64,000 nucleotides of DNA from an uncultured Desulfuromonas sp. (GTDB lineage Bacteria; Desulfobacterota; Desulfuromonadia; Desulfuromonadales; Desulfuromonadaceae). A program made the position numbers and the translations under genes. Location of the stretch: NCBI RefSeq assembly GCF_963678835.1, contig NZ_OY787469.1, positions 682,001-746,000 on the forward strand, given 5' to 3'. Shown here piece after piece: positions 24,375 to 29,547 of this stretch. Within the stretch, counting starts at the first letter, position 1. Each line of letters starts with the position of its first letter. A model generated the notes under the pieces. That model worked only from the letters and a program-made list of their open reading frames with translations. It did not search any database and had not been told where the DNA came from.

Positions 24375-24612
24375 CGGTTCTCCTTTTTTACCGCAAAATG
24401 CCGTCAGGTAAACTCTACACTGTCTTCATGTCAACTTATGCCGTAAAATAGCGCAAATCACAACCTTTTATCTACTTAGGACACCGCGATGAGGTGCTTG
24501 CCACGCTTTGGTGGGTTGGCATTTTTTGCCGGACGTCAACAACAATGAAATGGGTAAGCTTTGTCATAGGAGTAAACCGGTTTTTGGTTACAGCAACGGA
24601 AAGGATGACTCG

Positions 24613-25419
24613 ATGGGTTTGACAGCACTGGGCTTTATTGGTGGCGGAAACATGGCTGAAGCGTTGATCAAGGGCTTGATTGCATCTGGTATGGACAGCA
24701 AAGCAATGCTTGTTGCCGAGCTGATGCCGGAGCGCCGCCAGTTTCTTGAACAGACGTATGGCATTGAAACCACAGCCGACAGCAGTCAGGTTGTGGCTGA
24801 GAAAAAAGTCATTCTTCTGGCGGTCAAACCACAGGCTCTGGATGCGGCACTGATGCCGCTGAGTGAAACGTTCAGCGACGATCATTGCATGATCTCAATT
24901 TTAGCCGGGGTTAAAACCTCACGTATTGAGGCGATTCTCGGTGATTCACCACGGGTTGTTCGCGTTATGCCCAATACCCCGGCGTTGATCGGTGCCGGGG
25001 CAGCGGCGCTTAGTGGTGGCCGCTATGCTCAGAATGATGATGTTGAACTGGCTCGGCAGTTGTTTGCCTCGGTCGGTGTTGTTGAGGTGGTGGCAGAAAA
25101 ATTGCTCGATGCTGTTACCGGGTTGTCCGGTTCCGGGCCGGCGTATGTTTACACCATTATCGAAGCTTTGGCTGATGGCGGCGTGCTGGAAGGGTTGCCG
25201 CGCTCTGTGGCATTGAGTCTGGCGGCCAAGACCGTTGCCGGGGCCGCGCAAATGGTGCTGGATACCGGCGAACATCCGGCGGTGTTGCGTGATCGGGTGT
25301 GCAGTCCGGGTGGGACGACCATTGCAGCTGTGGATACGCTGGAGAAGGGGAAATTGCGCGCAACCTTGATGGATGCTGTCTCTCGGGCCAGCGAGCGGTC
25401 GCGGGAGTTGGCGGATTAG
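24613..25419 (+). CDS. proC: Pyrroline-5-carboxylate reductase ProC
   Basis: NAD(P)H-dependent enzyme for the last step of proline synthesis. 268 residues from ATG 24613, with AAGGA about seven bases upstream. The frame is open to 24508, but MGLTALGFIGGGNMAEALIKG from 24613 is the standard N-terminal Rossmann start. The C-terminal dimer domain has LSGSGPAYVYTIIEALADGG and DRVCSPGGTTIAAVDTLEKG. It diverges from the PvlArgDC-like gene; the 238 bases between them must hold both promoters, though none stands out. Confidence 0.95.
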   Translation: MGLTALGFIGGGNMAEALIKGLIASGMDSKAMLVAELMPERRQFLEQTYGIETTADSSQVVAEKKVILLAVKPQALDAALMPLSETFSDDHCMISILAGVKTSRIEAILGDSPRVVRVMPNTPALIGAGAAALSGGRYAQNDDVELARQLFASVGVVEVVAEKLLDAVTGLSGSGPAYVYTIIEALADGGVLEGLPRSVALSLAAKTVAGAAQMVLDTGEHPAVLRDRVCSPGGTTIAAVDTLEKGKLRATLMDAVSRASERSRELAD

Positions 25420-25440
25420 GTTCATTGTCTGTGCCGTTTT

Positions 25441-25859
25441 CTATCTCTTTCGTGGCACCAGTTAAACGGGTGGGCAGTGCCCACCCGTGCCTGGGTTTGT
25501 TATTGAACAGCCAAGTCCTCCCGTTCAGCAGCACCGAACGCAATGAACGCCAGCCCGCGTCATGAGGGTACCACCCTTGCGAACGGATGAAATTTGCCAG
25601 CGTGATCTGTTTCGAAGGGCGAACCACTGAAGATCAAAGTCAAGGTCGCCGGGACTCGCCCCGGCAGGCGACACCCTTTTGACTGGCCGCTCAAAAGGAT
25701 GCAAAAACCGGCTTGAACACCTCCTGACCCTCAAGATTAACCGACAATGCGTCTGTTTCCGTTATGCGTCACAGATCCGGCTCGCCGCCCTTTAGGTCGG
25801 CGAATCGTGCAACGCATCATCTTTGGCGTAAAACGTTGATAACAACCTTAAGTCGCGCT
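25441..25859. repeat. Structured repeat array, unit 1
   Basis: First unit (about 419 bp) of five tandem diverged units. It begins with CTATCTCTTTCGTGGCACCA and a perfect 21-base palindrome at 25467-25487 (CGGGTGGGCA-g-TGCCCACCCG). Downstream hairpins include GCCGGG/CCCGGC, CTTTTGA/TCAAAAG and TCGCCG/CGGCGA. Compared with units 2-4 it lacks about 165 bases carrying the ACTTTTG hairpin. No supported coding sequence. Confidence 0.8.
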
Positions 25860-26382
25860 CTATCACTGGTGTGGTACCGATCAAATGGGCGGGACGGTGC
25901 CCGCCCTGCAGTCGTGTGTTATTAAGCAGCCCAGCCCTCCCGTTCAGCAGCACCGAACGCAATGAACGACAGCGCAATGGTTGTCGGCAACCTGTTTGAG
26001 CGTCAGCGAGTTTTGCCGACATTGCGATGTAAGAGAATGGAGAGAGGGAACCCGATAGGGTGCAATGACGGGAGTCGATTTTGCGGTACTTTTGTCGACG
26101 CAAAAGTGCCCCGACGTGCGGGCGCGGAAGCCCGCGTCACGTGGGTACCATCATTGTGAACGGATGAAGTTCGCCGGGTCTCGTCCCGGCAGCCGACATC
26201 CTTTTGACTGGCCGCTCAAAAGGATGCAAAAACCAGCTGAACACCTCCTGGCCCTCAGATCAACCGACAATGCGTCTGTTTCCGTGATGCTTCACGGATT
26301 CGGCTCGCCGCCCTTTAGGTCGGCGAATCGTGCAATTCATCATCTTTGGCGTAAAGCGTTGATAACAATCTTCAATCGCGCT
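25860..26382. repeat. Structured repeat array, unit 2
   Basis: About 523 bp. The first hairpin is GGGCGGG/CCCGCCC at 25887-25906. A hairpin at 26085-26110 has arms GGTACTTTTG and CAAAAGTGCC. It lacks about 60 bases around the GAACCACTGAAG segment seen in units 1, 3 and 4. The two hairpins differ from other units by paired changes. Confidence 0.8.
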
Positions 26383-26964
26383 CTATCTCTGGTGTGGTAC
26401 CGATCAAGCGGGCGGGACGGTGCCCGCCCTGCAGTCGTGTGTTATTAAGCAGCCAAGCCCTCCCGTTCAGCAGCGCCGAACGAAGAGAACGGTCATCGCG
26501 ATGGTCGTCGGCAACCTGTTTGAGCTGTAGCGAGTTTTGCCGACATCGCGGTGTAAGTGAACGCAGAGAGGGAACCCGTAAGGGCGCAATGACGGGAGTC
26601 GATTTTGCGCCACTTTTGTCGACGCAAAAGTGGCCCGACGTGCGGGCGCGGAAGCCCGCGTCATGTGGGTACCACCATGGCGAACGGATGAAGTTCGCCG
26701 GTGCGATTCGTTTCGGATTACGAACCACTGAAGGTCAAGGTCAAAGTCAAGACCGCCGGGTTTCGTCCCGGCAGCCGACATCCTTTTGATTGGCCGCTCA
26801 AAAGGATGCAAAAACCAGCTGAACACCTCCTGGCCCTCAGATCAACCGACAATGCGTCTGTTTCCGTTATGTTTCACAGATTCGGCTCGCCGCCCTTTAG
26901 GTCGGCGAATTGTGCAACGCATCATCTTTGGCGTAAAACGTTGATAACAACCTTAAGTCGCACT
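26383..26964. repeat. Structured repeat array, unit 3
   Basis: About 582 bp, the most complete unit without an insertion. It carries hairpins GGGCGGG/CCCGCCC, GCCACTTTTG/CAAAAGTGGC (26609-26634), GCGGGC/GCCCGC, GCCGGG/CCCGGC, CATCCTTTTGA/TCAAAAGGATG and TCGCCG/CGGCGA in that order. The CATCCTTTTGA arm reads in this unit with an 8-base loop. Confidence 0.8.
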
Positions 26965-27711
26965 CTATCTCTGGTGTGGCACCAATCAAACGGGCGGGAC
27001 GGTGCCCGCCCTGCAGTCGTGTGTTATTAAGCAGCCCAGCCCTCCCGTTCAGCAGCACCGAACGCAATGAACGTCATCGCGATGGTTGTCGGCAACTTGT
27101 TTGAGGACTGATGCAGACTGGGCGAGTTTTGCCGGCATCGCGGTGTTAGTGAACGCAGAGAGGGAACCCGTAAGGGTGCAATGGGGTTGTTATTGATCAG
27201 ATGAACGAGAGGTGTTGCGTGAGATTTTTTGCGTCAGCAAGGCAGAGGGAGGAGCTATAGTCGTTCTATGGCGACGACCGATAACGCCGCTGACGTGAAA
27301 AAGATCCGCAACAACTCCGTGAAAGCTGATTGATGACAACCCCTTGGGAGTCGATTTTGCGCCACTTTTGTCGACGCAAAAGTGGCCCGACGTGCGGGCG
27401 CGGAAGCCCGCGTCATGTGGGTACCACCTTCGCGAACGGATGATGTTCGCCAGAGCGGTCAGTTCCGAGTGACGAACCACTGAAGAGCAAAGTCAAGGTC
27501 GCCGGGTCTCGTCCCGGCAGCCGACATCCTTCTGACTGGCCGCTCAAAAGGATGCAAAAACCGGCTTGAACACTTCCTGACTCTCAGATTAACCGACAAT
27601 GCGTCTGTTTCCGTAATGCGTCACAGATTCGGCTCGCCGCCCTTTAGGTCGGCGAATCGTGCAACGCATCAGCTTTGGCGTAAAACGTTGATAACACTCT
27701 TAAGTCGCGCT
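26965..27711. repeat. Structured repeat array, unit 4 (carries an insertion)
   Basis: About 747 bp. Removing the 161 bp inserted element at 27183-27343 leaves 586 bp, matching unit 3. The same hairpin order is kept. No coding sequence is supported. Confidence 0.8.
27183..27343. mobile_element. Second MITE-like palindromic element, inserted in repeat unit 4
   Basis: 161 bp segment absent from the other units. Its ends are imperfect 18 bp inverted repeats (GGGGTTGTTATTGATCAG against CTGATTGATGACAACCCC, 15 of 18 positions pair). Inner parts also pair loosely (GCGTCAGC with GCTGACG). It has no gene. Flanks rejoin to restore the unit 3 sequence almost exactly. Confidence 0.7.
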
Positions 27712-27890
27712 CTATCTCTGGTGTGGCACCGATCAAACGGGCGGGACGGTGCCCGCCCTGCAGTCGTGTGTTATTGAGCAGCCCAGCCCTCCCGTTCAGC
27801 AGCACCGAACGCAATGAACGTCAGCGCAATGGTTGTCGGCAACCTGTTTGAGGGCTGATGCCGACGGGGCGAGTTTTGCCGATATCGCAG
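27712..27890. repeat. Structured repeat array, unit 5 (truncated)
   Basis: Only the first ~180 bases of a unit, up to the GCCGATATCGCAG segment, after which similarity ends. The remaining bases to 27996 hold no gene that I can see. Confidence 0.75.
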
Positions 27891-27996
27891 TTTACGTTAC
27901 TTGGTGCCAGGTCATGTGACCGGAGAAGGTTCCCCATGCAATTTGCTGGGTTATGTGGTTCAGGGGAGCTAGAAAGGACTGTGCTGACACAATCTG

Positions 27997-29547
27997 TTAG
28001 ACTTCTTCCTCTTCATCCAGAGGAGCCTCTTCCTGTTCCGGCTCTTCAATGACCATGTCATCTGCATGAACCGTGAGAGGGCTGTATTCGCCGAAGTAGA
28101 GGCGGCTGTTGAGCGTGTCAGCAACAATGGATAACGGGCCGTATTGTTCAAAACGAACCTCTTCGGTGACAGTGTCCAACGAGATTACTACTTTTTCCCG
28201 TACACGCCGATGCACATTGATTTTGGCATTACCGTCATGGTCTTCATAGACGAATCCGTTGAGTTCCTTTTTTACCTCCACCTGCATTTTTTTCACCAGA
28301 TCAAGGCGATCAAGAAGGATGGTTAGGCGTTTTTTTGTGGCGGAGTCATCGCTTTTATCTTTGGCAGCCTTTTTTTTCAGCGGGCCAAGACAGTGATTGA
28401 TGAATTCGTTCTGGATGGTGAGACTCTTTTGCTTAGCTTTGAGCATTTGCAGGCGGTCGGTTTCAGGGAAATAGACCCCGGAGGTCAGCCGGGTGGTAAC
28501 TCCGGCTGTTGCGCCGATATCCTTGGCTTCAATGCCATTGAGGGCCAGACATCTACCTCCGCTGATCACGCCGTTTTTGATCAGAATGGCTCCGGCTGAT
28601 TTGATTACGCAGTTGCGGATCTCGTTGGCGATGACCACATCGCCCATACATTCCACCGTGACACCGTTGAGATAGTTGGCTTTGAGTGTGCCACCACAGC
28701 GGATCAACCCTTCGTCCCGCCCCGACATGCTGCCGATCGAGACATCGCCATCAGTAATCAGGTAGGAGTTGCCGACCGCTCCGCCAATCTCAATGCCTTT
28801 GATGGAGCGAATATCGAAACTGTCGAGTACATCGCCACGCACACGGGTGTAGCCGGGGAAATTGATGTTACCCACTTCCAGGTCAACATCACCGTGAATG
28901 ATGTAATCTTCCGAGACAGACAGCGTGTTTTCCGAATAATCGACCCGGCCGCATAATTCGGCGATAAAACGCTGACCGCCGTCTTCCACGCGGACTCCGT
29001 CACCGAGTCTGACGTCGAGCTCCTTGCCTTGAATCGGGGCGATGACTTTGCCGGTAACCGTGGATGAGCCTCTGCCGTATTCGGCTGGGTGAAAAATTGC
29101 GATTTCTTGGTCGGGTTCGACGCTGGTGAACAGGTTAAGGGTGTAAAGGTCGAGTTTGCCCTCGGCATTTTCTTCGAGTTGGATGTTTTGATCTGCACCG
29201 GTCCGGATCAGTACTTCCAGCCAGGCATCAGCACCAGGCTCGGGTGGTTCTGTGGAGGCAACGACCACATGGCGTTGCTCTTTTCCTTTGGAGGCAAAAT
29301 TGCATACTGCCTCGACAGCAGACAGGTCGACGCCGTCTTCAATGCCAGCCTGGGATAGCGCACTGAGTAGTTGTTGGGAGGGGATTTCAACGTCCTTTTT
29401 GGCGACAGGGATCAGACTGACCATGGCCGACATTTCATCATTGGCGACAATAATCTGCAGACTGAATTCCTCGGTATGTTCTTCGTGAACAACATTGCCG
29501 GGAGCTTCGCCAAACGGGCTGGTTTCATTTTCGGTGGTTTCAGACAT
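27997..29547 (-). CDS. fapA: FapA-family protein (DUF342, flagellar assembly protein A-like)
   Basis: 516-residue cytoplasmic protein. It has an N-terminal wing (about 25-180), then a right-handed beta-helix of repeated turns (about 180-350; IIHGDVDLEVGNINFPGYTR, ITDGDVSIGSMSG, VECMGDVVIANEIRN). A coiled coil follows (about 360-430; QMLKAKQKSLTIQNEFINH, RLTILLDRLDLVKKMQVEVKK), with a beta tail and an acidic C-terminus. FapA-like proteins are linked to flagellar assembly and MinD/FlhG partners in Vibrio, but the molecular role is poorly known. Its neighbour upstream is a c-di-GMP enzyme gene. Confidence 0.85.
   Translation of the reverse strand: MSETTENETSPFGEAPGNVVHEEHTEEFSLQIIVANDEMSAMVSLIPVAKKDVEIPSQQLLSALSQAGIEDGVDLSAVEAVCNFASKGKEQRHVVVASTEPPEPGADAWLEVLIRTGADQNIQLEENAEGKLDLYTLNLFTSVEPDQEIAIFHPAEYGRGSSTVTGKVIAPIQGKELDVRLGDGVRVEDGGQRFIAELCGRVDYSENTLSVSEDYIIHGDVDLEVGNINFPGYTRVRGDVLDSFDIRSIKGIEIGGAVGNSYLITDGDVSIGSMSGRDEGLIRCGGTLKANYLNGVTVECMGDVVIANEIRNCVIKSAGAILIKNGVISGGRCLALNGIEAKDIGATAGVTTRLTSGVYFPETDRLQMLKAKQKSLTIQNEFINHCLGPLKKKAAKDKSDDSATKKRLTILLDRLDLVKKMQVEVKKELNGFVYEDHDGNAKINVHRRVREKVVISLDTVTEEVRFEQYGPLSIVADTLNSRLYFGEYSPLTVHADDMVIEEPEQEEAPLDEEEEV

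Follow-up and report, generated by a model that had tools for sequence, protein, structure and literature searches.

A repeat family with inverted double-hairpin ends forms non-coding intergenic arrays in Desulfuromonas and related bacteria

The space between proC and a fapA-like gene of an uncultured Desulfuromonas sp. raises the question of what kind of entity a run of hairpin-rich repeats between two ordinary genes represents. The locus lies in a stretch of 64,000 nucleotides of contig NZ_OY787469.1, which is called the window here. The original prediction described it as a tandem array of structured non-coding units with compensatory changes. The array extends from about 25430 to 27898 and is intergenic. 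Upstream is proC, encoding pyrroline-5-carboxylate reductase (24508–25419, + strand; P5CR_dimer, 7.8e-42), and the array profile begins 11 bp past this gene. The downstream neighbour, convergent with proC, encodes a FapA-like protein (27997–29547, − strand; FapA 5.9e-54, FapA_N 2.6e-39). Direct repeats are present where they had been predicted: a 300-nt block occurs four times (72–100% identical to the reference copy) and a 118-nt block five times (69–100%), with start-to-start spacings of 419, 523, 582 and 747. The hairpin variants were likewise found in the sequence, the first stem being CGGGTGGGCA/TGCCCACCCG in copy 1 and GGGCGGG/CCCGCCC in other copies, and the ACTTTTG hairpin having GGTAC/GTGCC or GCCAC/GTGGC as its stem.

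The ends of the units in the window were placed with R1, a covariance model of the end motif. It detects four left motifs, which lie on the + strand and start at 25646, 26171, 26753 and 27499, together with three right motifs, which lie on the − strand and end at 26137, 26661 and 27413; weaker matches are three half-motif palindromes within left motifs and two hits of about 14 bits at 25595 and 22354. The five units of the original prediction are indeed repeats, but they are really three complete elements, one 3′-truncated element and one 5′ fragment, all read on the + strand. The fragment (25430–25641), located by profile matches at L015:2931-3142 that were converted to window positions, consists of a core end with a GGGTGGG..CCCACCC hairpin and a CGTTC..GAACG-type hairpin, followed by a shortened linker (core profile 218–337, linker profile 172–264). 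Element E1 (25646–26137, 492 bp) is complete, with a left motif at 25646–25721 (+) and a right motif at 26064–26137 (−) that score 82.3 and 25.5 bits with R1. The same holds for E2 (26171–26661, 491 bp; motifs at 26171–26246 (+) and 26588–26661 (−), 90.2 and 30.3 bits) and for E3 (26753–27413, 661 bp; motifs at 26753–26828 (+) and 27341–27413 (−), 90.1 and 29.9 bits). E4 (27499–27898) has a left motif at 27499–27574 (+; 83.6 bits), a core and positions 1–81 of the linker, as placed by R1 and the core and linker profiles, and is truncated before the right end motif. That units differ by whole modules also proved right, since E3 alone contains a 162-bp module (27184–27345, + strand) with complementary ends, GGGTTGT.../...ACAACCC. 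It is predicted to fold into one long hairpin (−84.4 kcal/mol for 27184–27346), and 33 copies longer than 100 bp occur in 39 loci fetched from the same genome, all of them inside the arrays there.

A typical element is about 490 bp long and is bordered by inverted copies of one double-hairpin motif. In this motif a GC hairpin is separated by CGAC from a second hairpin with an 11-bp stem; an A-tract follows, and past it come bases that can pair with the loop. In the left motif of E3 (26753–26828, + strand) the GC hairpin occupies 26755–26772 and is followed by a spacer, the stem CATCCTTTTGA/TCAAAAGGATG within 26779–26808, the A-tract and bases partly complementary to the loop. The tag beside the stem is mostly CGAC or CGCC, and the second hairpin is followed by CAAAA(A) before the loop-complementary bases. 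Each end can, according to this model, form a putative H-type pseudoknot in which the loop of the second hairpin pairs with the bases past the A-tract. Inverted end motifs were also seen in other loci of the same genome and in other genera and families, where a search for + then − pairs 380–650 bp apart gave 33 pairs spanning 420–539 bp; some loci there have an unpaired motif or the − then + order. In one genome of another family (G017) end motifs alternate within an array, and many arrays of the window's own genome end inside an element and have no right motif. Intergenic hairpins of the type CTTTTG..CAAAAG with an A-rich tail are common in proteobacteria and look similar to the end motif. 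One end motif of the own genome, at L018:246-319, is divergent, with the loop TAAGCCG and the tail CGGCTT; it resembles those of other families and stands apart from the main array type.

The element is not confined to this locus. One 582-bp unit has 199 matches in the own genome, and the 39 fetched loci contain 43 arrays longer than 250 bp that together make up 72,746 bp or 1.6% of the 4.525-Mb genome, a lower bound for the genome as some motif places lie outside the 39 loci. The core profile matches 147 times in these loci, 113 times at near full length. The 582-bp unit gives matches in 20 of 58 genomes, the own genome included; they are strong in G001, G002, G007 and G008, which are four of nine other genomes of the genus, and in G011 and G013, two of four further genomes of the family, and weak elsewhere in the order. 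In G007 and G002 most fetched loci are single elements, with a core followed by a linker. With the end-motif covariance model, 114 of 244 sampled genomes of the class were positive, again with the own genome included and under strict filters with at most 19 candidates scored per genome, and all 114 belong to the order of the window. This order-wide comparison is one of the end motifs of the elements. An exact pattern, scanned against named genomes, was found on four contigs of one Desulfuromonas MAG, BM513; as an order-wide marker an exact short pattern is too narrow (6 of 136 genomes) and was dropped. No match to the element occurred in a plasmid collection.

Compensatory changes in the five window units would carry little weight if taken alone, since a pair of ancestral hairpin alleles common to the copies would look identical. 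The paired changes of the original prediction were present with more copies as well, over 221 cores, 167 linkers and 55 distinct end motifs. For hand-chosen stems, counted in seven genomes over the 221 distinct cores and the 167 linkers, H1, H2 and H6 in the core and H8i and H11 in the linker are 97–99% Watson-Crick and the weaker stems P1, P2, H5, H12 and H13 are 64–80%, counts to which common descent of hairpin alleles applies as a caveat. Alternative pairs occur in large numbers, such as T-A (119) and C-G (96) in H6 and G-C (63), C-G (62) and T-A (33) in H10. The 199 unit matches together with the stem pairing over these cores and linkers exclude that the window array is a chance arrangement. 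A separate alignment of the end motif comprised 61 matches, 55 of them distinct, taken from the window and from 46 loci that belong to several families. Over the 55 distinct sequences pairing reaches 99.7% in the first hairpin and 98.5% in the second, where 2 and 6 pairs, respectively, are double-changed. Four of five measures for the whole structure lie above every shuffle, and the remaining one, further pair types, falls within the shuffles (65/500).

The six-pair stem of the putative pseudoknot is 75.7% paired in the end-motif alignment, against 65.1% after shuffling (0/500) and at most 53.8% when slid, with instances in another register scored as unpaired. The covariation score of this stem is 0.356 versus 0.188 for shuffled data (0/500), and two of the five measures, pairs changed on both sides (145/500) and further pair types (130/500), fall within the shuffles. 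In an overlapping sequence set the mean longest complement between loop and tail is 4.08, compared to 2.92 with shuffled partners (0/5000), a comparison in which shuffling ignores relatedness and some tails are misread among the 44 parsed motifs (49 were taken from 82 matches after omission of duplicates and weak or partial ones, 5 were unparsed, and 38 of the parsed are unique). The copy of the motif in the linker, read on the − strand, has GTCGA/TCGAC in most cases and GTCGT/ACGAC in 13 of 159 parsed out of 167 examined. Among the cores of the genus no loop/tail covariation beyond shuffles was found (3.919 versus 3.919; 210 parsed of 221). The caveat on alternative registers stands beside this result for the genus cores.

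Could the conserved palindromes be remnants of a protein-coding gene? Two open reading frames of 127 and 131 aa lie within the array, which is what a decayed gene might leave behind, but they have no Pfam match at E ≤ 0.01. Internal deletions are not multiples of three in 97% of 89 cases in the core and 98% of 96 in the linker, many being single-base, and the same is true of 100% of 241 insertions in the core and 81% of 247 in the linker. Most copies contain stops in every frame, with a median of 1–5 per frame, and in the best frame 30 of 167 linkers are stop-free. It is the palindromes that are conserved instead of a reading frame. An origin of the arrays as pseudogene remnants is therefore highly improbable, and the original statement that this is not a decayed gene is borne out.

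A more serious alternative is that each element encodes a large structured non-coding RNA of about 490 nt, the genes being arrayed and the RNA selected for its function. The fold is strong and conserved among diverged elements: a cluster of 13 elements from other families with a mean identity of 0.65 gives an alifold value of −79.2, where ten column shuffles average −7.0. In the hand-chosen stems taken together, G-T pairs outnumber A-C (717 to 352), which could mean RNA; this excess is seen in several interior stems and, to a slight degree, in the pseudoknot stem as well (30 to 19). RNA pseudoknots typically include an A-rich strand that crosses a stem. Several observations speak against this reading. 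G-T pairs are almost absent from the end hairpins, where 2 G-T cells stand against 920 Watson-Crick, 6 A-C and 4 other, and such scarcity is unlike usual RNA helices. The reverse strand of the 13-member cluster folds about equally well (−71.0 versus −5.9 for shuffled columns) and the end motifs point in opposite directions. The window unit, too, folds better than shuffles on both strands, and more so on the − strand (z −2.28 on + and −4.32 on −). No promoter-like site was found, terminator-like sites numbered 3 where shuffles gave 3.8, and Rfam returned no match at gathering score over the window and none at E ≤ 1 over 25400–27950. Taken with the evidence on its behalf, an arrayed RNA gene seems unlikely.

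The near-absence of G-T pairs and the lack of promoter or terminator excess make us lean towards the end hairpins acting at the level of DNA, with a role as RNA possible. The original suggestion of selection on folded RNA or DNA was right in that pairing is kept; it can be refined to a genome-wide repeat family bounded by inverted ends that are capable of a pseudoknot, in place of a single array of structured RNA, and for the end hairpins it leans towards DNA. Compensatory change does not by itself show a function for the host, because it is described for mobile REPINs as well (PMC3116915).

The position of the arrays relative to genes gives further information. With genes called by a simple codon model, the 43 array junctions (42 of them from arrays of at least 250 bp) comprise 29 convergent, 14 same-direction and no divergent pairs, the class being uncertain for the four in which a called neighbour is more than 1 kb away. 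Other gene pairs in the same loci are 5 convergent, 82 same-direction and 27 divergent (n = 114; Fisher 3.6e-16), and those in the window 5, 39 and 4 (n = 48; arrays versus these 1.7e-8). With genes called earlier in a cruder way, the array junctions had been split 25, 15 and 1 in the same order (n = 41). In G008 the junctions are 24 convergent, 15 same-direction and 0 divergent of 39, and the bias is weaker in G007 (10/15/2 of 27) and G002 (7/9/2 of 18). An apparent leading-strand orientation of the arrays, 28 versus 11 by the GC skew of the flanks, was discarded as the bias is absent in one replichore.

This convergent preference is what one would expect if the arrays were devices for gene 3′ ends. 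Working on the DNA or on the transcript, they might serve as bidirectional terminators or insulators, or offer sites to gyrase, IHF or HU, roles that have been suggested for REP/BIME sequences. Several array sites do persist between relatives, and PMC2700814 proposes paired multicopy sites of Geobacter metallireducens as IHF/HU sites. Yet no excess of intrinsic terminators accompanies the arrays, and at the window site and at site L032 three relatives keep the neighbouring genes without an array. G008 has a shorter form of the window array, which G002, G007 and G001 lack altogether, and L032 is occupied in the own genome and G008 and has no element matches in the same three genomes. The bias is moreover also expected from selection against damage to promoters, and is reported for REPs generally in PMC3733652. 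We judge a 3′-end device to be quite an improbable explanation.

What remains to be explained is how a real, widespread, structured, non-coding repeat family came to occupy these sites, and here a mechanism of spread can only be proposed from comparison of genomes. The explanation we favour, and consider somewhat probable, is that the array consists of non-autonomous non-coding repeats of about 490 bp, analogous to REPINs and to the NIME arrays of Neisseria, that were spread by an enzyme, amplified by recombination and tolerated at gene 3′ ends. An enzyme acting in trans would have spread the elements by recognising their structured ends as single-stranded DNA. Homologous recombination would then let tandem arrays grow, shrink and exchange. 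The convergent bias would reflect removal of copies that hit promoters, a terminator or insulator effect being secondary if it exists.

The search for the mobilising enzyme was directed at Y1 transposases. The own genome has 27 Y1_Tnp places, and about ten of the open reading frames (some 325–330 aa, for example C1:1302315-1303226 and C1:1738781-1739698) also match the C-terminal part of DnaA, an arrangement that we take to be RAYT-like. No significant end motif lies near any of the 27 places, the two weak scores being 12.2 and 10.8 bits (E 0.052 and 0.14), and 30 of 34 Y1 places in five relatives likewise have none. A RAYT or other Y1 enzyme as the linked transposase was rejected on these grounds. 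A broader proposal can be offered as a tentative possibility: the elements may be an undescribed, order-wide class of mobile elements in Desulfuromonadales-like bacteria, about 420–540 bp long, with pseudoknotted double-hairpin ends, which might spread as folded single-stranded DNA (or RNA) by machinery other than a motif-flanked RAYT, would be distinct from REPINs and MITEs, and could form arrays (at least 1.6% of the genome) that drive rearrangement.

Several known repeat systems resemble the element in part. NIME arrays with dRS3 likewise form large clusters between genes, made up of REP-like repeats in alternation with repeats of other kinds. Prokaryotic MITEs are also short and non-coding with inverted ends; they differ in that no parent with these ends was found at the Y1 loci searched. 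No target duplication was found either, and no transposition event was seen; the comparison covered two sites in five genomes, where the array-free junctions are too diverged to define a duplication. REPINs (PMC3116915) have two inverted palindromic ends with a spacer, are extragenic and multicopy, show compensatory changes in their arms and form higher-order clusters. Two inverted copies of a palindromic motif bound one element here as well, both in the window and in other genera and families. However, REPIN spacing in that paper is 71 or 110 bp with association to RAYT genes, whereas the motif pairs here span about 420–539 bp, the ends are double hairpins with a possible pseudoknot, the interior is long and structured, and the end type was not shared with RAYT-gene flanks at the 27 own places and the 30 in relatives mentioned above. 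The element is not classified as a REPIN because of these differences in size, ends, interior and RAYT linkage.

The CGTC- and GTAG-tagged REPs have a palindrome with a short unpaired tag, occur as head-to-head dimers, lie mostly between convergent or same-direction genes and include CGTC types without a dedicated transposase (PMC3733652); dRS3 is filed there as CGTC-1 and mosaic clusters are noted. They are single palindromes of 20–40 bp in that text, the CGTC type having a CGTC, TGTC or CCTC tag, a stem of 8–9 bp and a loop of 4–5, but the motif described here has a CGAC or CGCC tag, two hairpins, an 11-bp stem and a longer loop. The main text of PMC3733652 mentions neither Geobacter nor Desulfuromonas nor Pelobacter. 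Multicopy sequences of Geobacter and Pelobacter (PMC2700814, PMC2996986 and PMC3543383) are intergenic, some palindromic and some in opposite-strand pairs with short tandem repeats. These families may include relatives of the element, and the element may underlie part of the unexplained multicopy intergenic sequences in this bacterial class. A paper describing the element was not found among the main texts of the open-access literature searched. The element is now defined and searchable by a covariance model, borders and sites with and without arrays. It widens the range of REP and REPIN architectures by one with pseudoknot ends, and raises the question of how REP-like elements are mobilised when a flanking RAYT is absent.

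The arrays appear to be sites at which copy number changes and rearrangements occur, and unit number does differ between related genomes. For 18 of the 43 own arrays both flanks were present at one fetched G008 locus, and after one invalid interval was dropped element matches were found at all 17 sites. The number of near-full cores is higher in the own genome at 14 of the 17, equal at 3 and never higher in G008, a draft of about 50 contigs in which the lower number may partly be due to assembly collapse of repeats. Site L009 has four cores in the own genome, one element in G007, a one-contig genome, and shortened copies in G008 and G001; in the G002 stretch there is no profile match and the other flank was not found. 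Apparently a resident single element can become an array.

Core identity is 88.4% within and 86.3% between own arrays, and between the own genome and G008 it is 86.4% for orthologous and 84.9% for non-orthologous arrays. For 28 of 109 cores the best own match is found in the same array (2.4 expected), for the other 81 in a different one, and 16 of 75 cores have their best G008 match in the orthologous array. In L110, a G008 locus, the left flank of own locus L029 meets the right flank of own locus L030, which are about 38 kb apart, and this suggests a rearrangement between arrays through the repeats. At the array starts in L035, L042, L013 and L014, hexamer tracts of the types (AAGGTC)n, (CAGGAC)n and (CAAGAA)n lie directly 5′ of the GC hairpin, and in other families, too, some elements are bordered by short repeats of a similar kind.
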